A DNA stretch of 64,000 bases from Loxodes magnus (lineage: Eukaryota; Ciliophora; Karyorelictea; Loxodida; Loxodidae), in contig CAMPDV010000125.1 in NCBI GenBank assembly GCA_946699065.1, positions 496,001-560,000 on the forward strand. The letters run 5' to 3'. This document shows, piece after piece, positions 7,981 through 64,000 of this stretch. Both the position numbers and the translations under genes were made by a program. Under the pieces are notes generated by a model. It worked only from the letters and a program-made list of their open reading frames with translations. It did not search any database and was not told the DNA's origin. Within the stretch, counting starts at the first letter, position 1. Each line of letters opens with the position of its first letter.

Positions 7981-9300
7981 ACGCCTTTAGGAGCTATATT
8001 TCTGTATTCATTTTCTCAATTAAGGAATAAAATTAAATACATCACGTTTGTGGGGTTTCCCAAGCTTTTTTAGTTATTTAAAAAATTCAATATTTCTAAA
8101 TTTTTAACAGGAGTAGATTTATCTTTTTTGAATTCTTGGTTTTGCTAATTAATTGAGAATTAAGATTGACCTATTAGCTTAGAATTTAAGAATTAGATTC
8201 CTGGGTTTTTTACAATTTTTTTAAATATTATTAACTTTAGCTATATTACTTATTTTGCAATAAAATCTCTATTGGTTCAAATTTTTAAATTATGTTAAAT
8301 TCTAGTTAGCCTTATATTTTAAATCCATTTTATATTAATTATAATTCAGATAGCTCATTTAAACTTTTTCCTTTAAGTTCATATGACAGATTGGGATATT
8401 GTTCGGTAAATAATTTATAAAAAATTTATTATAAATAAGCTTTTTTAATTTTTCTTACATGTTTCCTCTTATCCGACTTATTAAAATAAATAAACTATTT
8501 TTAAAGTATTATATCATGTATAAATGTAAAATGCATATACTTCTATATATTAATTTTTATTATTTTTGTTTTACCTCTTAATTTAGATTCTATTAAATAT
8601 CTCTTAATAACTAACAACACTAAATTATTTATTGTTAAATGGTTTAAATTTTAGATAAAGTTAATTTTATAAAGAAAATAAATTTTGCACTTCATAGAAA
8701 TTAAAATTAAATCAAAAGATTGCCTAGATTTCTCTTTAGCTTGTTTAATAAATGAATACTGCTGAATATTTTGTAAAATACTAAAATTAAAGTTCCCAGA
8801 TTTTAGAATATATTGTAATAAGCAAATGGAATATTTAGTTTTTATTTTCTTTATCAATATGGTACTTTTTCCTTGTTTTTAACTTAACTACTAGGAGATA
8901 TAAAGAGGCTATTATAAAATAAATAAATATTAATCTATAAATAATTTAGGTTTTATAATTAAGATAAAATATCCTTTTGTCTAAAAATAGGCTTATAATT
9001 ATTTAATTTAAAAGCTTAATATAATAGTTAAAATATTTATTTTTTATATTTTTAAATCCTACTTTGCAAGGTATTGCATGACTATATTCCAATATAATTA
9101 AGTAAATTTTAATAAAATTAATAGCTTTTCTTAAACTGCTTTATTTATTAATAAAGCTGACCCTATTTAGCCTGTTATCACTACTTTTTTAGTCATCTTT
9201 CTTAAATTAAAGCAATAGATATTTTTATAAGATGACTAAATGAATATCAGAGTTAGTTTTGCTATATAAAAAAATGGATAAATATATATAAATAATTATA
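7981..9300. other. AT-rich intergenic DNA
   Basis: Nothing recognisable beyond possible upstream continuation of the coding-like segment at 7.4-8.0 kb to about 8.2 kb. Confidence 0.45.
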
Positions 9301-9367
9301 AATAACCATAAATAACCATAAATAACCATAAATAACCATAAATAACCATAAATAACCATAAATAACC
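9301..9367. repeat. Tandem repeat, 10-bp unit AATAACCATA, about 6.7 copies
   Basis: Six perfect copies of AATAACCATA and a partial seventh lie in a row. A single matching stretch (AAATAACCATAAATAA) recurs at 15755-15770. No function is evident. Confidence 0.9.
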
Positions 9368-16348: not shown

Positions 16349-19300
16349 ATGTCAAAGATAGATCTTTGGACTAGCAACTTCTAGAACCTTTACTAAAGAT
16401 TGTATACAATTATACATATCAATAAGCTAAAAAAATCAAAATTAGATCAAACGCACTCAGTTGTCTGCACTCAACTTATTCATTTCGTTTAAAAGGTTTA
16501 TTTATTGATTTCCTTAATCAATATAGAGAACAAAGAACTTTGAGAATTCGAAAAAATAAAAGAAGTGTTCAGAGGATTTGTGGTGGCTCCCTTGTTTGAT
16601 TAATCCTTTCACTAGCTTCTGCTTTTGTTCATAGTGTGCTCAGTTTATATTTCCATAATAATTGGGTGTAGTTTCTATGTAATGAAAAGAGCTAAACCAA
16701 GTAATTGAATAATAAACTTCGTCACATGGAATGCAGAGAATTTTAACTTAGTTTTATCAGTTCCTATAAACAAAACTCTAATAACAATAATAGCTTCTCC
16801 TGAAGAATTTCCTGATGATATAGAATATTTTTCGCAAACATACAGTATTCTATTCGTATGCTCATTCGTAATGATATTTCTTATCATGATATATCAACTA
16901 GCTAATTGCTACCTTACAGTTAATGTTTAGCAAGAGATAAAAATATCGAATGACATTTTATTTCACTAGTCATAGTCACATTTCTTATATTAGCTACAAA
17001 CTTTAACCATAATAACTTTAAACTCATTCAAGTAAAAGTATGCTTTACTTATCTTATACTTGGTTTTTTAGACTAGAGTTTCATATTAAAAAGTGTATTC
17101 GGGAACTTATGCAAATATAATAGTGGAGAAGTGAGATTTCTTCCTTTATTTAGTTAAAATTCTAGTGGCTATTATTATGCTTCTTATAGAAACCAACGAT
17201 ATCAATGTTACCTTTCTTATTTTCTTCATTCCTTTCCTTTACCAAATTACCAACTTTCTATATCTAAAGCGACTCCAGCTCTTTATGTCTTACTAGTTAA
17301 ATAAAGTACACTAACCAACAAACTGGCTACAAGCTATTAACTTCTACAGACAAATTTATGCACAATAAAAGAAATATCATTTAGACCCTAAATACACTAT
17401 ACTCCTTAAGGGTGCTTTGGTAAAGAACTTTGAGAAAAAAGGATCAAAACAAATATTTGATGGAATGAAGATCACTAAAAGTGTTCAAGTTTATAACGAG
17501 CATTTAATTACTCTAAGTACCAAATTAATCTCTCAACTAAACACTAAAGATCAGCAAGCTAAGTCTTTCATTCTATTTACTCTATTTTTCATTCTACAGC
17601 AGTAGAAGTAATTCCAATTATGCTTTGAGTTACTTAAGTAGTTTAGAAATGAAAGCTAAAACATAATATTTAGATTTTATTTATTCCTAGCAGACTAAAT
17701 TTTAATAAACATTGTATAAGAACAAAAAGAGAAAGCTTTGCAAAATATAAGAATAGACCATCAGTTAAGAGTGTAAGATCAATCAGACTTCATAAAGAAC
17801 CACTTTGATAATTAATTGCTAGATGTAGAAATCTTAATAAACATTTACGAGACTTTCAAAAATCTAAAGAACACAATAAAAATTATCCATCTAAAATATT
17901 TTTAATTTTGAGAAGAGCTTTCCCATGAGCTTATATAAGAATAGTAACTTCTCAGCTTAAACAAAGAATTACAAAATTTGAATAATGAAATGGAAAATAA
18001 TTACAAGCAAATCATTTATATGAATCCTTAGTTCTATTAAGCTGACTTATAATATGCTAAAATTTTATCATTAATAAATCCTGAAGATCCTTAAGTAGAA
18101 CATATAATTAATGAAGCTGAAAATAAAAAATTTTCTAATGATATAATAAAAAAGATTAGGAAAAACGACTTTTTAACTAATTTACTAGATGAAGATATAA
18201 TGATAATAGTTGTAAATGCAAATGACAACTATAAAATTATCTATGCTAATCACTAAACCTGCTAAGCTCTAAAGTTTTCTACTTCAGTAATTGAAAATAT
18301 AACATTTGATTAGCTTTGCCCTTTCATTATTTAAAAGAGCTTAAAAACATACATAGATGACTCCTTAGGAAATGAAATAAAGACAGTACTTCTTACTCAA
18401 GATGGTTTTCTTTTTCCGGTTATTTAAATAGCATCTTCTCGTTGGAAAAATTCGAAATTGGAAATTCTTTTTGCCTTTTAGCCATTAAGCAATACAAAGA
18501 ATAGTGGATTTTTATTATTAGACGAGCAAGGATTCATAGTAGCTTATTAGCAGCACTTAGATAGTTTTTTTATGAAATAAGAGAATGTCTCCAACATGCA
18601 AATAAATATGAATGACATATGTCCTTCGTATCAACAATATTTGAACTAAAATAAGAATATAACCATTAATCTAGCATAGTATTAAACTAAAGAGGCTTCC
18701 ATTAAAAGATAGCAAAGCATTTAAAGTAATAAATAAGATATTAAGCACTTAAGTAATTAGTCTTCTCTAAACTTAAAAAATGAAAATTAAGAACAAATAG
18801 ATAAAATCCGTGAGACTGTCTAAATTAATACCAATGAAAGCTTTTACTCATCATTTGGAAATCTGCTACTTTAAATAGTTGTTGTTGGATCTTACTTCAA
18901 ATAAACTTAAGTAGATTAAGAATGCTCACTTAATAATTCACTTTAAAACAGTTTTCTTTCTTCATAGCAAATACTAAATTCCAAAGATCTAAAGAAAAGC
19001 AAATAAAAGTCCATATATCAAGCTTCAGTATATAATTCTCCGGATAGTGAAATAGCTCTAATATAAAGACTAAGATAAAATAAAATGTAAACTACTTTGA
19101 ATAAAATAAGATAAATCTTTAAAATAACTGGTTTAATCTTTCTCTCTATTTTAATGGTTTTTGTTTGATATTCTTAATTTATAATGTAGAATTCATTGCA
19201 AGTTTATGAAAGAAACTATTATGAGCTAGATTAACTTCTTTCAATAAGTAATCTGACAGTTAGTGCCCATTGATTCATTATATCTCTGAAGTCTTACTAT

Positions 19301-21007
19301 ACAAATTTGTTTCCCGAGTAGTACTTATGGTAGTTTTAAGAATAGAAATTTAATGATGATTTATATTTGAACATACAAGCAGAGCTGAAATTAATCTAGT
19401 AAGAACTAAACGAAAATATCTTAAATCTGTATAAATACTCAAAGTGATTTCCCGATTCTTATGAAAAAGAACTTGAAATTCAAATGAAATCTGTTTTAGA
19501 TGAAAATGTTTAAGTTTAGACTTCAACTCTAAATTATATTTAAGCTTGCTAAATCATTAACAGGAACTTTTTTACTTTTTCTACTTTAGATAAATCAAAT
19601 TACGACAAATATAGTAATATGTTCCTATTTTCTTTTAGAACAAATGGATTAAATGCTTTGCTTAAAGAGAGTTACGATTTATTAATGGATACAATACAGA
19701 ATCCTGGAAGAAACTATGACTAAATAAAGAAAATTTCTATAATATTATTAACTTTTGAGACAATATTTGATTTCTTTATATTACTTTATATCTTCTTTAT
19801 CGTAATGAAAGTTATTAAGTCTAGAAAAAGAATTATTATGTTCTTTGTCAAGATTGGTAAAATTTATGCTCAATAATATTGTAAATAGCTTTACGAAGAA
19901 TTTTAGTAAAAGTTACTAAGTTAAGATGAAATTAGCTTGGGAAACGAAAATTATCTCATGGAATTAAGATAATAGGAATCTAATCAATAGAATTTATAGG
20001 AAGAATCTAAATCAAGCACTTCTAATATTACTATGAATGAAAAATTGCAAGATAATTCTGAAATTTCTATACTTGGAGCTAAAGAAGGCAAAACGAGAAA
20101 AGTAGAAAAAATAAAAATAAAGAAATAAAAGTAAAGAAATCTTCAGAACGTTCTTTAGAGTGTTAATGAATGAAAAAATTGAAGTAAATTTTGAATATTA
20201 TCATTCTTGTTTATAATGAGCATTCAGATATTCTATGTTCTAAACTTTAATCTTTATCCTTAATACGTCTAAAATTTCGAAAATCGTTAAAAAGCTAATT
20301 TCTTAGTATCTCAGAAATAAATTTTACTTTAACTTTCTATTGTTTCCTTGACTGAGCTTTTACTCAACTCTTCCTCTCAAGTGATCTGACAAGATACAAT
20401 ATTATTAACCCCTTAGCTGCTTGACGATTTGGATAAAATAGACAATGAGTTTTATTCCTTCTTTTAAGACAAATTAGAAAGTTTCACAAATGAATTTAAA
20501 AAATTATATATATAAACAACAGATTATGATGCCTGCATTACTTTCGAAGATCAAGATCTTTGCTATTAAACAGCTGATGGAATTCTGTAATAAGGTTACC
20601 ATTTAGCAACCATCAGATATACATAAAATCTAAGAGAAATTTACAAAGAATTTTAGTCTACAGATCAAAGTATTGAAGACGGCTTAAGACTTCTTTAATC
20701 TGAGAAATTCACTGAAAGTAAAATCCTCTAATGATTTTTTTTAACAACTTTAAATGAAAAATTTCAGACATTAATTTAAGATAACGTTAAATAAGATTTC
20801 AAAGAAGCTAAAGCATTTTCCAATACTTTCAATTCTGTGCAAACTTGCGTATATGTGATATCATTTATATTAGTTTGAATAATTTTAACTTAATACTTTA
20901 GTTCAATCATAAAGGAGTAGATTAATATAATAAATCTTCTTCCTACTAAGTACATAGTTTATGGAAATCTGAAAAATGAGTTTGTGGAAACTATAAAGAA
21001 CCTATGA
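16349..21007 (+). CDS. Large multi-pass membrane protein with PAS-like region, paralog A
   Basis: One uninterrupted frame of 1552 codons runs from the ATG at 16349 to a TGA, with no intron. The N-terminal 300 residues hold several hydrophobic segments (LLLLFIVCSVYISIIIGC, ILFVCSFVMIFLIMIY). A helical cytosolic part follows (about 320-600), then a PAS-like stretch near 600-730 (IMIIVVNANDNYKIIYANHQ, GFLLLDEQGFIVAY). Two pairs of later membrane spans flank extracytoplasmic-looking loops (VSAHWFIISLKSYYTN; ITFEDQDLCYQTADGI). The C-terminus is LLPTKYIVYGNLKNEF. This layout recalls the PAS-containing TmcB-like membrane proteins that are numerous in ciliates; function is unproven, probably environmental sensing. 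At least ten tryptophans are TGA. It is clearly paralogous along its whole length to the gene at 28.4-33.1 kb, which supports both start and stop. Confidence 0.85.
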
Positions 21008-24000
21008 AAAATGTTTGATTAAACTTATTTTTATAATTTTCATAATTTTACTAATTTTTTCTTTCTATGATATTTTATATAAGTTAAAGTACTAAAAGTA
21101 AAAGGATAATATTATCTTTAACAAGTACTTTATATTTAAGCCTAATTTCTTTCTTTAGCTGTAAAGCTATTTTATAATAATTATTTTATAAATAAGAGTA
21201 GTTTTTATTATAATCTACTAGATCAATTTTTTTAATACTTGAGTCAAGTCTCTAGGTTTATATTCTTAAACTTGCTCTTTTGTAGGATCTAATTTATTTA
21301 CGCTAAAATTAGAAAATAGGAATATAGATAATAATTAAAAATAATAATTTGGAAAATTAATTTATCTTAGCTCAATTTAATTTTAAAGACATTTTACCTT
21401 AAAAGCTGTTGCAAATAAAATAATTCAAGAGAGGAAGCATAAAGACTTTAAGGTTCTTTCTAAAGAAGAAATTCATAAAATAAATATTATTAAAATTGGA
21501 GACATGAAAAGTAAGAGAAAATAAATTAAAAATATATTATTTTACTTCTAGATAGATCTTCATAAAATTTTAATCTCAAATTAGTTAAATAGCAAACCCT
21601 AAATTATGTGTAAATAAAGTTAAAATAATTTAATGATCTTATTCTAAGTAATAAAACTAGAACTTTTGAAAAATTTAATTAATAATATAATATTTAATGT
21701 ATAATCATGTGAAAAGATTCATTTTTACTTATAATTTTTAAACATATTAGCTTAGATTAACTAGATAATCAAATTTATAAAATTTAAAGTGAAAAAGATT
21801 AAATTTAAGATTATTAAAGAAAACTATAAAGTAAACTAATTTTAATTAATTCAAATTTTGGAAAAAATTTGAAATAAGCGGCAAAGATAGCGTATAAAAT
21901 TTAAGAAAATGAAATAGTACATTTGATAACTTATTTGAAGATTTAAGCTTCTATTCAAATTTTAATTTGATAAGATTTAGAAAAATTAATATATATAATT
22001 AAAAAGACTAAACTTTAAAAATAAAAAATTATTAATTTAATTATATAAAGTCTATTATATCTTCAATTATTAAACTATTTAAAAAAAAGGATTCTTTATT
22101 TTTCTAAAAGTAAAATGATATAATTAAGAACAATTAAAATAATGAAAACAGACTTAAGTGATTAGAATTTAAAAGAATTAGGAAGCTTAAATAATTATAA
22201 AATTCTTCTGAAATAATTTATTAGCATTAGTTTAGATATTGTTTATATAAGAATTTTTAAAATTAAGAGGCTTATAAAAGGTTTATGAAAAAATGAATAA
22301 AATTTTTATATGGTAATTTTAAAAAGAGTAAAAATTTATAAAAATGATTAAGCAAATTTTCAATGGAAGATAAATTAAGAAAAAGAGTAAAAATAATAAA
22401 AATTGAGATTGATATATACTCTAAAAATAAATTTCAATCTAATGATAATTTAAAGAGATATTTTCAGTAATCTTTTTACTTTCTCATATTTGTTAATTTT
22501 ATAAATATAATCCTATAATTTTTTAAATTTTAATTATGTAGCTAATAGCATTCTCTACATAAACTTGAGTTAAATTTGTGTAAATTTAACTTAATTAATT
22601 AATATTTAAAAAATTTAACCCATCATCTTGAGTAGCTTTTGTGAAACATAATTTAGTTAATGAATCCCTTTTTAAAAATTTATTTTAATAGCTTCTCTCT
22701 CAAATAATGTGTGAATGCTTAAGCATAGATCACATTGTTTCTAATATCTATGAGACTATATTAGATTTCAGAATTTTTAATTTAATTTTTACTTGCATTT
22801 TATTCTGTTTCACTAACATTCCATCTTATCATTTTGTTTCCTTTACTAGCCATACAGCAAATTTTATTGCTTATTATTTTAAATAAAAATTACTTTTTAA
22901 TCTTAATTTTAAATTTTACAAGAAAAACAAAGATAAGATATAAGTTTAGAACTAATTTAGCTTGTATTCTCTATTGCTTATTTTACCCTTTGTATTAAGC
23001 TAAGATAAATATTATTTATTATGAATTTGTTTAGATTTCTTATTTTCTTTAATATTGGGAGTAGCTAGTTTCACGAATAATTCTTTATTTTAATTTTAGG
23101 GAGTACTGTAGGTTTATTACCTTAATCTTCTGATTTCTACAAATTAATTTACTTCTCTCTTAAGAAGTTATACTCTTATGAGCTAATATCTAATAAAATT
23201 ATCTTTACAAAGTATCAAGCTTAATCATATTTGAATCAGATCTTCTTTATATCTTTATAAATTTAAGAATTAATACATTTCTTTCTTTTTAATTATACAA
23301 TTTTAGCGATGCTAAATTATATACTGAAAGTATTTCCTAAAACTCGTATCTTAATTTTAAAATTTGCTAGAATAATTTCAATTTTCTAGGAACTAATTGT
23401 AATTCAAAATAAGCATTTTAATAGTTTATACCCTTATTGGTATACAACTAAATTAATGCAATTTGATAATTTCAGCGAATTTTTAATTTATCATCTCTAT
23501 TAAGTTTGGAGATATACTTGTGTCTGTATAAATCCTTATTGTAAACGATATCTTATATATTTTATAAAAAAATAAACGCACAAAATAAAAATCTTCAGTT
23601 TTAATGTTTTTCTATGCTTACAAGACTTATAATAAGGAAAATTAACTATTTTCATATTTTTACATTTGCTTAAGCATTTCGAATTCAAAACTTTTTAATT
23701 TATAGTAGTTTTTATTTGCTCGTAATTGCTTATTCATTTATTTAGCTTAGTTATAGAAGTTATCTTATTTTGATTCACTGTAGTTAGAAAAATAATTTTT
23801 AGCTAATGAAAAATCTATTTGATCTTTAGAAAGATCTTTTTTAATTATTTTAGATAAGATTTAAAAAAATTGCTAAAATAAATAAATGGAAAGATAAAAT
23901 TCAATTAAATATAGCTTTTTATTAGTAAATATTAATTATCCTAATTTTTACATCCATATCTTCTATATTAGGTAATAAACTTCACTCATTTAAAATTAAC

Positions 24001-27000
24001 TAGAATTTATTTTGATTTTGCGATTAAGTTGGTATCAAGATTAAATTTTAAGTATCTTATAATTAGTTTATTTCATAAACATAACAAGGATAGTTATTTT
24101 AATTCCATCAAAATAGTTTGCTATAAAAATATAAGATTTAGTCGCTTTCTTTAATTTGATTATATTATATTATATTATATCCTTTTTATTTAAAAATAAA
24201 ATAATTTTACTAATTTAATTTTTTGGTAAAAAGATATAGCAAAAAATAAATTTAAACTGTATTTTTTAATTATGATTCTTTAATTTAAACTTTATCTTTA
24301 ATAATATTTTTTATATAAGCAATCTCTATTTTTTATTGGTAAATTTTATAAATATAGTCATTTATTTTCTTAATATCATTATCCTGTGTCTAGATTTAAT
24401 TTTATTAAATTTCTCTTATTAATTTTTGTCTTAATTTGATACTCTTTTTATTTAATCAACGTTGTACTTTAAATCTAAAATAGAAGCTTTATTTAAATTA
24501 TGTTTTAAGATTATTATTTAAATAGTTTGCTATTATAATCAAAGTGTTCTGCTTATTAATTAAGATCTAATCATTTTTATTTAGTGAGTAATTAATATAT
24601 TTCAAAGCTCCTAATTAATAAAATGCTTAATTTAATAGTGAGTAAGGAATTGATAAGTATACTCAAGCTAATGCCAAATAAGTGATTTTAAGCTTTTATT
24701 TTTAGGATATAAAATATATGAGCTTTGGTGTATTTAAATTTAGATATTTTTCATTTAAGTTATTATAAAATGTCTTTATGTATTTATTTCTTCGTTATTA
24801 AAATAATCAATAAATAGAAGCTAGAAATTCTTTAAAAGGTATTCTTTAGATGTTTTTAGAAATTTTCTAGTTAAATTTCATTATTAGTGCTATGATAATA
24901 ATAGAGCTTTTCTTAATTTTAGATTTTTAGGTTAATTGAGTTTATTTTATTTTTAGCATAGTAAATTATTAAGATTATTGTTGCTTAATTTTAAAAGTTT
25001 TTATTAAAAATAATTCAAGACCTACTTTCATTAAACTTGGTGTAGTCATAAGTTATAGTGAGATAGCAAAGCTTATAAAATTATTTTGATTTTATTTATA
25101 AATTTATCATTATTCTTAAATTATAAATTTAATTATAAATCTATTAAAGAAGCAGATTTTTATTATTTATCCTCTATGACTATGAAGATATTAATTTATA
25201 CAAAATCCTTTCAGTACTACAATATTAGTTATATTCTTATTTATTTTGTTAAATATTTTTACTAAATTTAATGATATTTACTATAAAGCTAAGCTTAATA
25301 GGCTAGATAATTATTAATGAACTAATAAATGATTTGATATATGCTAAGTATAATAAAGCTTATTAGTTAACTATAGCAAAATAAACTTTAGTTAATATTG
25401 TTATACTAATCTACTATCTCTTTCATATATTCTTTTAAATAAAGAAGAGGTTATCTGCTTGAATAAGCATCAGTCTTTTTACTTAAATAAATATTACTCT
25501 AGATAGTTCTTAATGTAATAATTCCTTCATTTATATACCTTTAAATATTGAAATAGTAGACAATAGCTTATGTTTCTATTATTATATCTAAAACTTCTCT
25601 ACACATAATGATTAATCATTTGATTAGCTATTTAAAGAAGTTTACTATAGATTAATTTAGAAACTTTAATAGTTAATTAAAGATATTTACTAAGACTTTA
25701 ATCTTCAATCAAAAATAGATTTTAATAGCTTTAGAACTTTACAAAAATATAGTAATAAAACCTTTTGAACAGATATTTGCTATGGCTAATAGACTAGCAT
25801 TTATCTAGTTCAAAGAGACAGAAACTATTAATTAAATATTAATTATAAAATAAAATACCCTATAAAATTAATTAATATAGACAATATCTTAGCTATTAAT
25901 TCAAAACTGAAGATAATTATTCATAGCTATATTAAAATTTATGCATTTGTATTATCAAAACTCTAATTGAGCAATGCTCCTATTTATGCTGAGTCTTTAA
26001 TTAAATATAATTTTTATAATAGAATAAAATACTCTAACTCTTTCTGAAAGAATAGTTATTTTTAGATTTTATAGACACATTTAAAATAATAAAAGGAGCT
26101 AAAATTAATTTAAAAGACTATAAGAATTAACTCATCAATCTGTCCTTCAATTTATCTGTAAACTAAGAGGTTAGAAATTTAAATAAATAGTTAAAAATTT
26201 ACTAAAAAAAGATAATAGATTTAAAAGGTTAAATACTAATCACTTAATGATTAAGCATAAGATCAGGCTAGTTTTTATTTGATTGATTAAAGAAAAACAA
26301 TTAATCACTTTATTTTCTTGTCGTTTTGCTATTATTTTTCTATGGATTTTAAGAACTAAAGCTAAATTAAAGTTTATTAAATATAAGGATATCTTAAATT
26401 TTTAATTTTCATATTTTAATAGTGAGACCAATAGTTGCTTTGAGTTTATTGGTTAAGAAAAATGTAATTTATAACCTCTGTACACTGAAATGCGTTTATC
26501 TAAATTGATTGATTTAGTGAAAAGAGTAAGTAATAGGGGAAAATATGGAAAATGCAAGTAATGAAGAAATATTAAATATTATATCCATGAAGTCAATTAA
26601 AAAAAGATATGCTGCATTTATTTCATCAGCGTCGTATGAAAAGTTTGTTTATTAACGTAATGCACATAAAATCAATTTAATTATAACGATCTCAAAATAT
26701 ATAGTATATTCCAACCTATGAAGCCTTTTTTATTTTTTAAATATTTACATAGTAAAAAGTGTAAACACAAACTGATAAAGAATTTAGATAAAATAACTTA
26801 ATAAAAGTACGATCATTTCAATTAAAGATGATCTATTATAATTAGTTAGATATGTTTTAAAGGAGTATATTTAAATTAATTAATAATTTAAATAGTTTTT
26901 ATTTATTTGAAACAAATATAAGCTATATAAAATATTAATTATTATTTCTATAAATAATGTAAATGTATGACTTTATTAAGATATAAATAACAAAGCTATA

Positions 27001-28422
27001 TTATTAACTAATATTAATTAGTCCATATGAGAAATTAACAATTTGTTTGCTATAAATTAAATACCCAAGTATTTATTACTTAATATAAGATATTTATTTA
27101 AGCATTTTATCATTATATTTTAAAACATTCTTTAAGAACTGACTGATTACCTAGACTTGATAAGATATAAAAACTAAATTTTAAATATACAAAATTAATT
27201 ACAACAAGTAGATAAATCATTAGAAACATTTCCAATTCTATTTTCTATAATTTAATAAATTAGTTATTAAAAAAGATACCTTATCACATCTAATTTCATG
27301 TTAATTATCCTTTTAATATGGCATTTTGATTAATTACAAATAAGTTTCTTATAAAGGTCATATTAGATTAGCCTGTAAGATTTTAAAGATAATTAAGCAA
27401 ATTTAAGTTAAAGCATTAGATTCTATTAAGATTATTAAAAATAGAATTTAAGCCACTATTAATAAAAATGTTAGTTATGCTATTAATTTCTGGAAATTAT
27501 AAGTTAATAGCTCATTTAAATTTTTATTCTTAATCATTATTATTAAGAAATTTTTTTATTTCTTATTCTTATCTCGTTTCAATAGAGCTTAGCAATCTAT
27601 TCTCAGCAAATTAATTTAAAATAAATTAAGTTTGTTAAAAAATAAAATTTATAGTGAAGACTAAAATAGAAAAACTTATATAATAAAATTTAATCTCTAG
27701 AGTATCTATTTAAACTTGGTTTCTTTCTTAGGGTAAAATTATATAAATAATGAAAGAGGTAAATTATTAAAGAATGAAAAAGTCAGATTAGCCTAACTCA
27801 AAATTAGAAGTTTAAAATAAATTATACATTTTTTTAAGATGAATTAATCTAAGAATATTCATTTAATTCTTAAAGAGTGGCCTATACATAACTTGTATAA
27901 TATTCTCTTTCAAATCATCACTTAATTCTTATTAGTTAACTTAAGCATTTATTTATTTCAAGCTTATATTAATTAAACTCTATTGTTATTTTTAATTTTA
28001 AATAGAAATTTATTAATTAATACTTTTGATAATTGTTGCTTTTTTAAGTTTAAATTGAAACTATTTCTTAAAGAATGTTTTACATTATCTAAAAACATCT
28101 AAATAGATACTTTCTAATTTCTTTTTAGTTATTTATACTCAAATTCTGTCATTAATTTACATTTTGTTAGTGTATTTATTTAATTTAGAAGCCCAATTTA
28201 AATTCAGCTTTTTAATCTTTTAATGGTTTCTATAAGTAATTCCTTTTAATTTATACTGGTATTTATTATATTATTTATAATATTCATAAAAAATAGCTTA
28301 CATTAGATTTTTTTACGGTATTTTTTGGAAATTAGTGAAATGAAAGAGATTGATTATAATAAAGAAAATAGAAAATAGAGGATGATTAAAGAAGTTTATA
28401 AGCTAAAAATATAAAAGTTATA
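21008..28422. other. AT-rich spacer between the two converging PAS-protein genes
   Basis: More than 7 kb with no recognisable gene, tRNA or repeat array. A short TATAT/ATTAT microsatellite lies at 24160-24180. A slightly GC-richer patch near 26450-26660 was examined and gave no convincing product. Confidence 0.5.
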
Positions 28423-31400
28423 TCATAGTTTGTTGAAAGTTTCTATGAACTCATTTTTAAGATTTCCGAATATTATGAACTTAGTAGGAAGAAGCTTTAA
28501 TATATTGTTTTGCTCCTTTATAATTTCTGAGAAGTATTTTATCAAAATTATTCAAGCAGTGATAAAGGCTAATATATATCAAACAGTCTGAGTTATGTTA
28601 AATACGTTTCCATAAACTGCAGCTTCTTTAAGGTCTTGCTTGATGTTATCTTTAATTCGATTTTGAAACATTTTGTTTAGATTAGTAAAATAAAACTATT
28701 ATAGTATTTTGCTTTACACAAATTTTTCCGATTTAAGGATATTTAAACCTGTTTCCTAACTTTTATCTGAAAGTATATATTATTAGTAAATTTCTCTTAT
28801 GTTTTGTAAATATCAAATAGTAGCTAAACGATATCCTTTCTATAGAATACCATCTGCTACTGTGTAACATTCACTTTGATCTTTGAAAGCTGTGCAAACA
28901 TCTTGATCTGTGGTTTACTAATATAAATCCTTGAAATCCTTTGAAAAAATGTTCATATTATCCTAAAAATATTAGTAGCAATCATCATTAGTTTAATCCA
29001 ATTTATCAAGCAGCTAAGAAGTTAATAACTGAGTTTCTTAATTGATAATTTCAGAGGAAGAATTAAGCAAAAGCTCAGTTAGAGAGGTAATAGATATCTG
29101 AAGCAAAGTTTACTTATGAGATAAATAGAATGCTCCTTTTAAACGATTCTCAAAATTTTTAATGTAGTGAGGATAAAGATTAAAGTCTATTATATAAAAA
29201 AATTGGATGCTCATTATGAATAAGAAAATTCAGATTCAAAACTTTCCTCATCTTTTTAACTCGTTCTCACTCTGCAAAGAATTTGAAAGATTTCTTTATT
29301 TTTATTTCTTCATGCTTCTCTTCCCAACTTATGGTGCTTTTCTTTTTTTATTCTAAGTGTTAGAAAAATAAGATATATCTTATTACTTTTCGTTTGTAGT
29401 TATATTAGTTGTAATATATTTTTGTCCTAATTGACCTAATTATTAGTTCTCTTCTTCCTTTTTTATCTCTTCAAGTATATCTTGTTCTAAACTCTAAGCA
29501 TCTTAACTAAGGAGTTTCTATTAAAATTCTTCTTATAATTTCTTGCAATATTCAGATGCATAAATCTTAGCTATTTTGATTAAGAAGAAAATGATTGTTT
29601 TTCTGGACTTAATTACTTTCATTACGATACAGTAAATATAAAGGAATAAGAACACACTAAATAATGTCTGGAAAGTTAATCATATGATAGAATTTTTCTT
29701 TATTACCTTGTAGTTTTCTTCAGGTTTATCCACTAGTTACATTAAAGTATTATAGCTCTATTCTAGTAAAGTATTTAGTCCATTCTATCTAAAAGAATAC
29801 AATAATGCCTTGTTTTCTTATTTGAAATTTTCCTTAGTTACAGTGGAAAATAAAAATAAGTTTCTATTAATAAGTTAGCAAGCTTGAATGTAATTTATAG
29901 TTGATTTCTGAATTTCTATATTTTCATCTAATACTGATTTTATGTAAACATCAAGTTCTTTGTTGTAAACTTCAGGAAATCATTTAGAGAGTTAATATAA
30001 GTCAAGTATATCCTCATTGAGATTTGCTTAGAAATATTTAAGCTGCATTTAAATGTTTTCATATAAATCATCAGAAACTCTTCATTCTTGATATTATCAT
30101 AAATTCTTTTCAGAGAACTCGTTAGAAACATTAAATTATAGAGATAGAATAAGCCAGTGTGTGCTAACTGTTATGTTACTTATTGACAAAAGCAGGTCAA
30201 GCTCAAAATATTTATTCTAGTATATTATCAATTAATTTCCTACAATAAATATAGTATACCATATGAAAATCATTAAGATAGCGAGAAAAATTACTCCTGA
30301 TATTTTAAATATTTTCCTTATTTATTATTGAGTCTCTTAAATTTTGTTTTACCTGATTTTTTAAATTTATATAATTTCAGTATCTGAATATTGGGAAATG
30401 GAAGATTCATATATTGATTTTTATTTACTTTTTTTATGTTCTTATGAACTTATTACATTCTTAGAATATAGAAAAGTATGCTCAGGCGAAGGATTAAAAT
30501 AAAAATCTTCTTCTGTCTAGTGTTATTTAAAGTAAGATCCAACTATTACTACTTAAAGTAAAATGTTTCCAAAGGCAGGATAAAATCCTTCAATAGTATT
30601 TATTTATACGTTCTCGTAATGCTTTTCTGTTTATTCTAAATTTTCACTCTTTTAATGGGTTTAAATTTTTGAAATTCAATTATTTAAATTAGTCTATTAC
30701 TAATGGTTATTGTCAGAACTTAGCTGGCCTTTTAGTTATCTTTCTTTTGTATGTTGCTTTGCTAAACTCATAGAGATAATTTAGTTTGAATTCAAATATT
30801 GCTAGTATTGAGGACATTTTTCTTTCAAATTTATTTAACTGTATGATTATCCTTCTTATTTCTTAAAGAAAATATCTAAATGCTATTAATGAGCTATTAT
30901 AAACTCTTCTTCGTTTATTAAAAATAGTCCGCTGTTTTTTTTGTAAATAAATGGTTGAAAAGCATATATTATCTCAAGTTTTGAGTTTTTCCAACGTGGA
31001 GTTGATATTTAAATAACTGGAATGAGAAATCCATCTTAAGTAAGAAGTAGTGTCTTTATTTCATTTCCTAATGAGCTATCAATGTAAGTCTTTAGATTCT
31101 TTTAAATAACAAAAGGAAAAAGTTAGTCAAATAAAATGGTTTCAATTACTGAACTGGGAAAATTAAGAATTTAGCAGGTCTAATGGTTAGTGCTTATAAT
31201 TTTATAGTTATCATTCGCATTAACGACTAATATCATTATATCTTCGTCAAGTAAATTTGTAAAAAAATCGTTTTTCCTGAGCATTTTAATTCTTTAGTTT
31301 GCAAGTTTTTTACTCTCAGCATTTTCTATTAATTTTACTATCTTAGGATCTTCAGAGTTTATCAACGATAGAATTTAAGCATATATAAAATCAGCTTAAT

Positions 31401-33087
31401 AGAATTGGGAGTTTTTACGCATAATTTGGTGGTGAATATTTGCGATTTCAATCTACATAATCTATAATTCTTTATTTAATGTAAGTAGCTATTACTCTTA
31501 TATTAATTCACAAGATAGATTCTCTCAGAATCTCAAATATTTTATCTAAGTGGCTTTTATAGTCTTCTTTAAGTTCTTGAATATTTCATTTATATCAATT
31601 ATTACCTCTACATCTAACAACTAGTTGTCAAAGTGGTTCTTTATGTAGTCTGATTAATCTTGTACTTTTACTTGATGCTGAATTCTTATTTTTTATAATG
31701 ATTTTTATTTTTATTCCTATACAATGTGCATTAGAATTTAATCAGCTAGATTTAGGTAAAATCTGAAGACTCAATTTTTATTTTTATTTCCAAACTGCTT
31801 GAATAGTTAAAAGCATAATTGAAATTGTTTCTGCTGCTATAGAATGAAAAATAATGTAAATAGAATGAAATATTTTGCTTCTTGATTCTTACTACTGAGT
31901 TATTAAATCTATTAAGTACATAAGGATATCAAACTTTCGTTATAAGCTATAATATTTTTTGTGATTTTCATTCCTTCAAATATTTTTTGGAAATCTGCTG
32001 ATTTAAAGTTCTTAATCAACGATCCTTTTAGGAGAACACTAAATTTAGGATCTAGATGATAACTCTTTTGGAAGGTATAAATCTATCTATAAAAATTAAT
32101 AGTTTGTATGCAGTTTACTTGATTGCTTTCCTTGCTTAGTTTCAAATTCATAAATCATTCAACTCGTTTTAGATAAATAAAGTTTCTTATTTAGTAAAGG
32201 AAAGGAATTAAAAAGAGAAGAAGGAAGAATTTTCTATCCTCTGATTCTAGAAGAAGCATAATAATAGCTACTAACATTTCTACCAAATTGAGGAAAAAAT
32301 CTCACATTTCTACTATTATACTTGCATAAGTCCCTGTATATATATTTTAATACAAAGCTCTAGATTAAAGAACCAAATATAAGATAAGTAAGGCAATTTT
32401 TTGCTTGAAAGATTGCAGAATAACTACGATCAAAATTTGAATCTAATAAATAAAATGAGATTGAGATTAGTGAAACAGGATATCGTTTGATATTTTTATT
32501 TCTTGTTACACGTTTATTGTTAAATAGCAATTAGCTAATTAAAACAATGTGATCATAAAGAGCATTACAAAAGCACTTACAAACAGGATAATGTATTTTT
32601 CTTAGAAATACTCTATTTCATTAGGAAAATGCTCAGGAGAAGCAATCATGGTAGTTAGAGTCATATTTGCTGGAATAGATAAGATTAAGTTAAAGTTTTC
32701 TGAATTTCATGTAACAAATTTTATTATTCAATTGTTTAATCTGTTATATTTCATTATGTAGAAATTACTTACAAATAATAAAGAAATATAAATAGACCAC
32801 ACTATAAATAAAAGCAGGAACTACTCAAATTCTTAGTTAAATAATGGAACGACTACAAATCCTCCAAAAGTTTCTTTAATTTTATCAAACTCATATGCTT
32901 CTTTAGTCTCCAAATTAACCAACGAGATTATTAAATAGATCTTTTAAATAAAATGAATCAGCTGCGTACAAATTACTTATTTTGTTTGGTCATAATTTAC
33001 ATCTCTAAACTTATTTACTTATAAGTTCATATATAAGCGTTAGTAAAATTTGCTGAAGTTATTAGTTCAATGGTTTGCTTGCATCAT
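28423..33087 (-). CDS. Large multi-pass membrane protein with PAS-like region, paralog B
   Basis: A single frame of 1554 codons, ATG to TGA, without introns. It aligns with the 16.3-21.0 kb protein from start to stop: FVTWNSENFNLILSIP against FVTWNAENFNLVLSVP, QLANCYLTINVQQEIKISND against QLANCYLTVNVQQEIKISND, DIMILVVNANDNYKI against DIMIIVVNANDNYKI, and LLPTKFIIFGNLKNEF at the end. The linkers, for example around residues 760-860, are far more diverged than the membrane and PAS parts. The start is the first of two adjacent ATGs; either could be used. Membrane topology and PAS position match paralog A, so the two probably do related sensory jobs. Paralogs A and B converge, which fits an inverted duplication. 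Confidence 0.85.
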
Positions 33088-60219: not shown

Positions 60220-60862
60220 ATTTCTATAAATTTATTTTTTATTTCTAAATCATTTCTCTTTTTTAAAAATGCCTTCGCATATAATTCTTTCTTTAATTTA
60301 CAAGCTCTGCTGCAATTTCTATTACGAAAGTTATTTATCCTTTATGTAAGAGTATCTTCTATAATTCTCATAATGAGAAATAAATAGCACTTTTACTTTT
60401 ATAGAACAAAATCCAAATAGCTTATTAATCTAAAATTTCAGTACAAAAAGATATAGATATTCTAAAACTTATCCCTTTAATAAATTTTATATTGTAAATT
60501 CTATAATTTAATCTAAACTTTTATTATGGCTTTTTCTTTGAGAGTTGTAAGGTTTTCATAATGAAATAGCTTTGAGATTGATTTTAAATAATTTAAGTTA
60601 ATCAAAGTTAAATTTCTAAAGATTTATAACGCAGGTATAAAATGAAATCTGCTGAACTTTTTATAAGTCTTTTATCTTATAAAATTAATTAGAATTTTTA
60701 CAAACTTTACAAGTTTTTTAATTATTTTTACTATTATAGATACTCTTAAAGCATTTTACTTTTATTATACTATTTGACTAATAAAAAGAATATTTTTATA
60801 TAAGAAATTAATGTTTATATAATAAAAGAAGCATAAGCATAAATCAAAACATATATTATTTC
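60220..60862. other. Intergenic DNA with possible 5' extension of the PP2A B'' gene
   Basis: From 60220 to about 60400 the minus strand remains protein-like (RINNFRNRNCSRACKLKKEL), which may be an upstream exon. The remainder is plain AT-rich DNA. Confidence 0.4.
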
Positions 60863-63800
60863 TCATAACTTCACTCTTAAAGTGTTTATTGTTTCAACTC
60901 CGTTTTTGGCGTTTTGATTCACAATAAACTATTAATCTTCTATGTCATCGTAAAATTCAGTGACAAAATTAATTCTCTAATACTTCTTAACATTTTGAAT
61001 TTAATTCTTTATTATTCCGTTAACTTCACAAGCTGTTCTTGGACTGAAAGTATTAGTTTCACTAAATTCTGGAAAAATTTTAGTGGTTTTCCTAGGTTTA
61101 ATTTTTATAACTTTAGCAAAATTAGTAGATCCAAAAGTATTTTGTTCCTCAATATCATGCTATTTTGCTTTTTAATCTTGACTATTAAATAATTGAACTG
61201 TCCTTTTTATGAAGCTAAATTTCTATTCATTTGCTTAATTTTTTTCTTCTTGCCATTCAAAAATCGCATCTTTTTATTATTCTGTGAAACTCATAAATCA
61301 GGAAACAATTCCCATAAGACCAAAAACAGTTCCTAGTAAAGAACTCAATAAATTTAAAAAGGATAATTTTTGAATTTGCTGAGTAACTAAAGAAGAGTCG
61401 CTTAGAATGAAATTAATGTTTGCATATACATTAGTAGAAAACTACACATCTGTACTTTTGTATTGACTTCCTTTTGTTATTACTCCCTCCAAAAGAAGAT
61501 GGTATCCTGTATCTCCATTGTAGTTTATTTTACTTGATAAATCTGTTTCAAATACACTACTTACTGCAGTAACGTATAGTATTGAAGGATTAGTTCCTCT
61601 AAATATTTTTTAATCCTCAGGTGAAATGGTGAAATTAATACTTGACATTTCGTTTGGAATTGAAGAAGTAGCAGAAACATTGTAATTAATTTAAGAGCAA
61701 TAGGAGTCAGTCTCTTCGAGCTTCAAATAAATCTCCGAGCCTGTAACAATTTCGCAGTTGATGCATTAAAACTTAACATAACAGTCTTTTAAATCCTTTT
61801 TACATTCAATTTTACTCCACTATCCCCCAACTTAATTCTTCTTTATGCTTTTAGAATCATAAGTAATTTTTGGATCACAATCGGTGAATTCTTTTAAATC
61901 TTAATCACTTGAAATGCATCTGCCTTGATATGATACAAATTTTACGATTACTTCAACATCAGCATAAAGAGATTAATAGGTTTCTTTCAAAACAACATAA
62001 GGAATTAATGCTTTAGTTTCTAAAATATTATTTATAAAGTAATTTGTTAAACTTGCTCCTACAAACATTACTGACAGTATTATAAAAATGACGGAAAAAA
62101 ACCCTCCTCAAGAATTTTTTATAAACTTAATAGCTTCACCTAATCTATAACTATGATAAACAGTAAACAGATCAAACTTTTCCAAGTATTTAGGTGCTTT
62201 ATTTCATACAAGCAAAAATATTAAAGTTACTAAAAGAATGAAGCCTGTTATTGTATATACATAAATGTTTGCTTTTTTCACTTCATCGGTTTTTTCTTAA
62301 TAATTCTATGGTTACTACGATTTAAAATTTTAACTTAAGTTTTATGACAAAGGTTATGGATTTATGCATCCAATACCGCAATAAGATCCACTTGGACATA
62401 CGTAACAAAAATCTAGCCCTTTTTAATTTCCGTAATATCCTTCAGAGCATGGTATGCATTGGCCTTTAGTATGAGCTCCCTATTTGCTCTATTCCATTCC
62501 ATAATCACATTATTTGCATTCATGATTAGAATCTCCATAAGATCCTGCAGGACAAAGTTAACATTCCTTTTGATCAGAGTTATAGAATGTTCCGTAACTG
62601 CAAGGCCAATTGCTTAAGCTTTATTTATTTCATTTATGTGGTATATTATAAATTCTAAGTTGGTTTTAAGCTCTTGTTTCCAATATTATGCCTTTTAAAA
62701 CGTAGCGTCCTCCAAAAACAATTATTTTATTCTTATAATAAACCATTGCATGTCCCAAAAGCATTCGAGGATGGGCATTATCATCCGTATCATACTCGAA
62801 AGTAAAAGATTCATTTTAATCAAATCGGCCATAAAACATTTTATTAGTAGGATATAGTCCCCACTAAGCTCCTCCTAAAAACGCGACATAATGATCTATA
62901 TCAACGTGTGCTGATCTTGGTCAAACTTCCATAGCATGTATTTGACTTTCTCACTATCTCTTTTTTAAATCGTAAGAATATAATTCATATTATGGAGTCA
63001 AGCCTTCATCTTCGCCATCAAAGATATATATCTTATTATTAGTTAATATACATTAGCTAAACTTTAATTTATTTTATTCTCCTTTATCTAGATTTGATAT
63101 TTAAGTTCATTTCTATATACCATATTCAAACATTCATAATTCATTTGAATAGCCTAAGCTAGTTTATCCCCCAAAAATAAACATTTTATCATCATCATAA
63201 GCTGAGCAAGCTCCTGATCTGGCAGATGGTCCATTTGATAGTTATATTTTTTCTCATAGCTTGGTAAGTGAGTTAAATGAATACATATCATTTAGAAACC
63301 CTACATCATTTTCACCTCCTTATATTATTAAGTAATTTCCATGAACACTTGAAATATGCTACCATCTAGGGGTAGGTTAATCTCCTTAAGGAGTTTATTA
63401 ACTTCATTTCATAAGTTCCAGATCTAGATATCATAATTCGTTTAAAAAATTATTGCCTTCATCTTTACCTCCAAAAACATAGGCATACTAGGAAATTATA
63501 TTCATAGTATGAAATTATCGAGGTCTTGGAGATTCGAAGTTTTCTTGAATAGTTTCCCATTCTTATTCTTATGATTGCATATCTAACACAATAAGGTCAT
63601 TCATTAATCCTTCTGTAGAGTATCCAGAAAATATGTAAAATTTATTGCTCCACAATGCTCCAAATCCAGAGTCTCTAGCCAATGTATCACCATAGTCACC
63701 AATCAAAGTTCAACGAAGATTATGATGATCTGAGAAATCTAACTATCATAATTCAGGAATATCTTCTTATAAAATCTCACTTCAGCCTCCTGCCTTATAA

Positions 63801-64000
63801 AATATCTTTTTTTAGTAGTCTATAACTTAAGCAGAATAATATTGATCCCTAGGATGAACCTTAGGAGACTAAGTTCTTCATTCTTGAGTTGTTAAATTTA
63901 AAATAAACAACCTAAATTCTAAAATGAATCCAGAAGGGAGTAAAATTATTTCGTCTTAGTCTATAAATATCGTTGATGATCATTAGGGAACTGGATTTTC
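60863..64000 (-). CDS. Kelch-repeat, cysteine-rich, multi-span membrane protein (5' end outside window)
   Basis: 1045 codons are visible; the start lies beyond the right edge. The N-terminal half has repeated Kelch blades (FYIFSGYSTEGLMNDLIVLD, FGGKDEGNNFLNELWYLDLE, IFGGQTSLGYSNELWMFEYG). Nearly all blade tryptophans are TGA. Next comes a growth-factor-receptor-like Cys-rich section (CQLCPAGSYGDSNHECKQC, CIPCSEGYYGN, CYVCPSGSYC), then a span (YTITGFILLVTLIFLLV), a second near FFSVIFIILSVMFVGA, a Cys-containing extracellular-looking domain, a last span (LLGTVFGLMGIVSWFM) and a Lys-rich cytosolic tail. The layout suggests a surface receptor or adhesion protein with an extracellular propeller. 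The ligand is unknown. Frame is continuous over the whole 3138 bp with no intron. Confidence 0.8.

Follow-up and report, generated by a model that had tools for sequence, protein, structure and literature searches.

Codon usage in a Loxodes magnus gene family agrees with NCBI table 27, TGA serving as tryptophan inside genes and as the stop at their ends

Introduction

Genetic codes in which codons carry both a stop and a sense meaning were described in 2016 for Condylostoma and Parduczia (PMC4967479; this and the other papers are cited from excerpts). The 706 Mbp macronuclear assembly of the ciliate Loxodes magnus is assigned NCBI table 27, with UGA as the sole stop, yet read as tryptophan (Trp) at a sufficient distance upstream of the poly-A tail, and with coding UGA depleted for ~20 codons before the stop (PMC11441545). 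A tRNA-Trp(CCA) with a 4-bp anticodon stem is stated for Loxodes in PMC13092985, which cites a 2024 eLife paper. Here, we analyzed a 64,000-nucleotide stretch of L. magnus DNA (the window; assembly GCA_946699065.1, contig CAMPDV010000125.1, or C125:496001-560000), which holds two paralogous genes, A and B, with many in-frame TAA, TAG and TGA codons.

The code used by these genes is NCBI table 27, which is already known from karyorelicts, Loxodes among them. As in the excerpted account of L. magnus (PMC11441545), TAA and TAG fit glutamine (Gln), while TGA fits Trp in genes and a stop at their ends, and we found no difference in code. The Condylostoma magnum code, as far as it is covered in PMC4967479, gives the three codons the same sense meanings, but UAA and UAG terminate there as well, whereas TGA appears to do so alone here. 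In the nonstop code of Blastocrithidia, as presented in the excerpt of PMC12153298, UGA is likewise Trp and all three stops are reassigned. There, however, UAR (R, A or G) is glutamate and UAA is the stop, whereas here Gln scores far above glutamate for TAR and the stop is TGA. The best explanation overall, to which we give a probability of about 97%, is that the window is karyorelict nuclear DNA of L. magnus under table 27, with the mechanism set out below.

TGA and TGG at the same positions in A and B

Paralog A has 13 TGA, 5 TGG, 104 TAR and 51 CAR codons in frame, and paralog B, alignable to A across almost its entire length, has 18, 4, 109 and 49, respectively. The two were compared codon by codon with TAA, TAG and TGA masked for alignment, which gave 1,547 aligned pairs. 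A preliminary description of this DNA had claimed that A and B swap TGA and TGG at codon 127 and at codon 940 of A (943 of B), and that TGA as Trp and TAR as Gln follow from the window itself. Both swaps are present at the coordinates given, and three more, absent from that description, bring the total to five (A codons 7, 127, 940, 975 and 994; Table 1). Random reordering of B's codons, repeated 10,000 times, gave on average 0.084 such differences and at most 2. We treat the shuffle as support only, as it is too lenient toward codons that lie one mutation apart; the weight is carried by the ATA/ATG control described below.

TGA stands in both genes at seven columns and TGG in both at one. The claim of many conserved Trp encoded by TGA in both genes comes down to these seven columns. 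At six of them one or more of the other paralogs carry TGG, while the remaining one, at codon 120, lacks conservation. Varied residues or gaps opposite TGA had been named as the outcome that would speak against Trp, and the result is divided: TGA faces TGA or TGG in 12 of the 24 A/B columns that contain it, and in the other 12 faces Leu, Tyr, Ile, Val, Arg, Asn, TAG or, once, a gap. Because a single transition separates TGG from TGA, two swapped codons alone are weak evidence, and with half of the columns varied the A/B pair by itself is suggestive rather than proof. The word 'prove' was too strong for two swaps; the question is settled by the larger family, together with an isoleucine/methionine control.

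Codon assignments from 15 paralogs

A DNA search of the genome (705,730,643 bp, 7,843 contigs) with the start of A returned 15 places, A and B included: 12 on C125, two on C18 and one on C1219. Counting A itself, 14 of the 15 copies can be aligned to A across all or the greater part of its length, and 13 of the 14 stay in a single frame. One copy, L049, shifts frame near codon 1425, and another, L045 (C125:457700-463200), is similar to A through codon 713 only.

Across this family we hid TAA, TAG and TGA and took as the best residue for each the one with the highest BLOSUM62 score summed over the other rows. W came out above all other residues for TGA (259, runner-up Y 61), and Q for both TAA (581, E 292) and TAG (326, E 142). 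All six control codons reported (TGG, CAA, CAG, GAA, AAA and TGT) were recovered with their known meanings. The majority residue opposite was W for 90 of 154 TGA and for 61 of 92 TGG; TGG itself shows a similar spread, to be set against the varied A/B columns.

Within columns, the codons proposed to be synonymous are mixed. In every one of the 13 Trp columns, defined by TGA or TGG in 60% or more of the rows, both codons occur, and the family tree requires at least 34 changes between them, which makes the family a clean test set. Of the 61 Gln columns, defined by TAR or CAR in 80% or more of the rows, 59 contain TAR as well as CAR, with a minimum of 162 changes. The rate for TGA/TGG was 2.62 changes per column (13 columns), as compared with 2.44 for AAA/AAG (94 columns), 1.83 for GAA/GAG (60), 1.78 for TTA/TTG (55) and 1.44 for CAA/CAG (9), all synonymous pairs, and with 0.55 for ATA/ATG (49 columns), a pair that is equally close and non-synonymous. 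The tree behind these counts is approximate, as some copies appear to be gene-conversion mosaics; it served for the control pairs as well. Opposite TGG, TGA occupies 31.6% of cells, while TTG, CGG, AGG, GGG, TCG, TGT, TGC and TAG each occupy at most 3.3%. Since TGA and TGG exchange at a rate like that of true synonyms and unlike that of ATA/ATG, they act as synonyms. The alignments support TGA as Trp inside genes and TAA and TAG as Gln, so that the sense assignments of the preliminary description hold when the codons are masked.

TGA could also be followed in an unrelated gene of the window, which encodes kelch repeats and an ephrin-receptor-like domain. The other nine of the ten predicted coding stretches searched with Pfam had no family at an E-value of 0.01, which excluded them as additional tests. 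With its TGA masked, the kelch gene was aligned to solved structures, and the four TGA that lie inside the alignments were counted. The count covers seven of 13 alignment stretches: TGA does not occur in u168446 stretches 2 and 3 or in u158118 stretch 2, and three u142030 stretches, near-copies of those of u158118, were omitted. At two of these TGA (Table 1) the kelch proteins have Trp opposite in nine of ten alignments combined.

TGA at gene ends

Thirteen paralogs could be followed in frame to their ends, leaving out L045 and L049. All 13 finish at a TGA in the same column, after an ETIKNL-like motif, with no similarity visible beyond it, and none of the 13 ends at TAA or TAG. As homology stops at the same-column TGA in 13 paralogs, TGA is also the stop. 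A copy of the eRF1 gene (L054, see below) likewise seems by eye to end at TGA, after DEDFL. On these sequences, TGA is the only apparent stop at gene ends, in this paralog family and, by eye, in L054. The sense meanings given in the preliminary description are therefore only part of the code, as it had left out that TGA also ends genes.

The last 20 codons before the stop contain no TGA in the 13 paralogs (0 of 260 codons, P = 0.15 at the rate of the gene body). CAR is missing from the same codons (0 seen, 8.1 expected). In 12 of the 13 copies, the coding TGA closest to the stop is found 43 codons upstream of it.

Decoding machinery in the genome

A tRNA-Gln pattern with one mismatch allowed had 527 matches in the genome and none in the reversed control. 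Among the 100 of these pattern-based matches that were listed, the tRNA-Gln-like anticodons included UUA, CUA, UUG and CUG. A second pattern, built on the anticodon loop of Trp type and the T-arm, had 137 matches, against 22 in the reversed control. Of the 100 listed, 92 share one sequence, 48 on C67 and 44 on C148, mostly regularly spaced; the C148 copies were viewed from the anticodon loop to the T-arm only. ARAGORN, applied to nine of 30 fetched loci, called tRNA-Trp(CCA) at three C67 loci (L061, L070 and L084) and nothing at the other six. The anticodon stem of the C67 tRNA-Trp(CCA) reads ATCGA/TCGAC, in which an A27-C43 mismatch leaves four pairs. This is the same four-pair stem as in the published Loxodes tRNA-Trp(CCA), as far as the excerpt of PMC13092985 describes it; here the genes form a tandem array. 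A Trp-type pattern with the anticodon UCA had seven matches, against 16 in the control, and none was tRNA-like by eye, although intron-bearing genes or genes with another variable-loop length would escape this pattern. The search for suppressor tRNAs that had been proposed as a check thus yielded UUA and CUA matches of the tRNA-Gln-like kind and no excess of Trp-type UCA matches. An Rfam tRNA search scored 63 of 42,786 candidates, and in the scan of 15 of the 30 fetched loci just tRNA-Lys and tRNA-Ala were called. Within the window, Rfam gave no matches and ARAGORN no tRNA.

Regular spacing is seen in several tandem arrays of tRNA or tRNA-like sequences. The Trp arrays repeat every ~188 bp on C67 (L061-L084) and every 241 bp on C148, and the Gln-like arrays every 588 bp on C130 and every 1,264 bp on C112. 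Further arrays have spacings of 527 bp (C103) and 1,753 bp (C78, L026-L030), and tandem arrays also occur on C154 and C158.

The genome contains two closely related copies of eRF1, L053 and L054, ~35 kb apart on C196. In the part of L054 that aligns with human eRF1 there are 20 masked codons, all TAR (15 TAA and 5 TAG). Nine of the 20 lie opposite Gln, and no other residue is found opposite more than three. In the same alignment, human TASNIKS and YLCDNKF correspond to RAQNIKS and FLCENTF, at positions that we take to be the stop-recognition motifs of eRF1. The Q of RAQNIKS is itself encoded by a TAR codon. The best match to eRF1_1, L052, was rejected as eRF1 and turned out to be Pelota.

A mechanism and its alternatives

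The elements observed directly, namely the codon assignments, the same-column end TGA, the tRNA-Trp(CCA) genes, the tRNA-Gln-like sequences and the eRF1 gene, can be joined into one mechanism. Dedicated tRNA-Gln with anticodons UUA and CUA would read TAA and TAG as Gln. Coding TGA would be read as a near-cognate codon by the 4-bp-stem tRNA-Trp(CCA), and TGA near the mRNA 3' end would be the site of termination by eRF1, with closeness to the poly-A tail deciding; for the near-cognate reading and the role of the tail, the backing comes from the papers. With TGA as Trp inside genes, TGG and TGA are synonyms, between which paralogs drift. The window and its genome confirm the code and its underlying tRNA as published, and an ambiguous stop/sense code could be read correctly from unannotated DNA.

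Several observations, in addition to the 12 varied A/B columns, weigh against table 27 or parts of the mechanism. The 15 rows of the family alignment are not independent, as three pairs are partly near-identical. In the kelch gene, the TGA at 63433 and 63136 face varied residues, with Trp in 0 of 6 and 0 of 2 alignments. Eleven of the 20 TAR codons of L054 face residues other than Gln (Ser 3, Lys 2, Val 2, Glu 2, Leu 1 and Thr 1). Folded for minimum energy, the tRNA-Trp sequence does not form a cloverleaf, so the 4-bp stem is read from the ARAGORN call and the canonical positions. The pre-stop depletion of TGA reported for L. magnus is non-significant in this family. The GC content of the 2-kb stretches holding A and B (~22-26%) is lower than the 33.5% given for L. 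magnus coding sequences in the excerpt of PMC11441545.

Among the alternatives, a fully ambiguous code of the Condylostoma type (table 28), with TAA and TAG as stops as well, has identical sense assignments and also occurs in a ciliate (PMC4967479, as excerpted), but the ends of the 13 paralogs and the apparent end of L054 argue against it, and we consider it very unlikely. Even less probable is that TGA stands for another residue or a misread mixture, its pairing with TGG merely reflecting a distance of one transition. A single mutation does turn TGG into TGA, and half of the A/B columns with TGA do not face Trp. However, mutational closeness alone would not separate TGA/TGG, which change at the level of true synonyms, from ATA/ATG, nor would it set TGA apart from the other one-step neighbors of TGG, which are rare opposite it. 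W also led the masked scoring for TGA, and two TGA of the unrelated kelch gene face Trp. We give the smallest chance of all to A and B being decaying pseudogenes that have accumulated stop codons. While just two open reading frames of at least 120 amino acids exist in the window under table 11, nearly all copies match A along at least most of its length and 13 keep a single frame, and the nonstandard codons are placed at conserved Gln and Trp positions.

The paralog family and other features of the window

The proteins of the family are ~1,550 amino acids long. Five copies were examined for hydrophobic segments and have between 8 and 10 each; A, with eight, would be a multi-pass membrane protein. 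The C-terminal half has two long loops between membrane segments. A matches the Pfam family TPR_TmcB, a TmcB-type TPR stretch, at 28.2 bits (cut-off 27 bits), and has a weak PAS-like match under the Pfam cut-off. Among five other paralogs scanned, only L048 exceeds the cut-off for TPR_TmcB; L041 and L043 fall below it, and the family is not listed in the scans of B, L040 and L050.

Some pairs of copies are nearly identical over their N-terminal half. Codon identity at same-residue sites is 0.97 for A/L039 and 1.00 for L042/L043 in the first 700 alignment columns, and 0.61 and 0.75, respectively, beyond column 700. Past its near-identical part (roughly the first 500-700 codons), A/L039 has ~66-75% nucleotide identity, while identity in L042/L043 dips to 0.65 and comes back up to 0.91-0.98 around columns 900-1200. 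L044 and L045 are near-identical over their 713 common codons. This pattern looks like gene conversion, which would make the tree inexact and reduce the independence of the rows, the code inference being otherwise unaffected. It is conceivable, though we think it doubtful, that the contig-scale array, with 12 of the 15 detected copies on one contig, is a diversity-generating receptor family, in which the N-terminal half (membrane segments, TPR and PAS-like) is converted between some copies and the C-terminal half has diverged. If so, the gene family rather than the code would be the new point, in a ciliate that is reported to edit its genome little.

Two further Pfam matches fall below their cut-offs and are probably due to chance: Phage_pRha in B (16.5 vs. 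29.9 bits) and RIFIN in L050 (21.9 vs. 32 bits). The coordinates of all features, including a short tandem repeat, are given in Table 1.

Table 1. Features of the 64,000-nucleotide window, with positions counted from its first nucleotide.
Feature	Position	Strand	Observation	Basis
Paralog A	16349..21007	+	1,552 sense codons, then TGA stop	translation
Paralog B	28423..33087	-	1,554 sense codons, then TGA stop	translation and codon alignment
A codon 7, TGG	16367..16369	+	faces B codon 7 TGA (33069-33067)	
A codon 127, TGG (FVTWN)	16727..16729	+	faces TGA in B	15 paralogs: TGG 8, TGA 5, Phe 2
B codon 127, TGA	32707..32709	-	faces A codon 127 TGG	
A codon 940, TGA	19166..19168	+	faces TGG in B	15 paralogs: TGA 5, TGG 9, one row without residue
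B codon 943, TGG	30259..30261	-	faces A codon 940 TGA	
A codon 975, TGA	19271..19273	+	faces B codon 978 TGG (30156-30154)	
A codon 994, TGG	19328..19330	+	faces B codon 997 TGA (30099-30097)	
TGA stop of A	21005..21007	+	same column as TGA of 13 paralogs	no visible similarity 3' of it
TGA stop of B	28423..28425	-	same-column TGA of paralog family	
Kelch-repeat gene with ephrin-receptor-like domain	60858-64000	-	17 in-frame TGA, 7 TGG	
Kelch-gene TGA	63404..63406	-	opposite Trp of solved kelch proteins	6 of 6 alignments
Kelch-gene TGA	63254..63256	-	opposite Trp of solved kelch proteins	3 of 4 alignments
Short tandem repeat	9288-9367		8 copies of ATAAATAACC	97% matches

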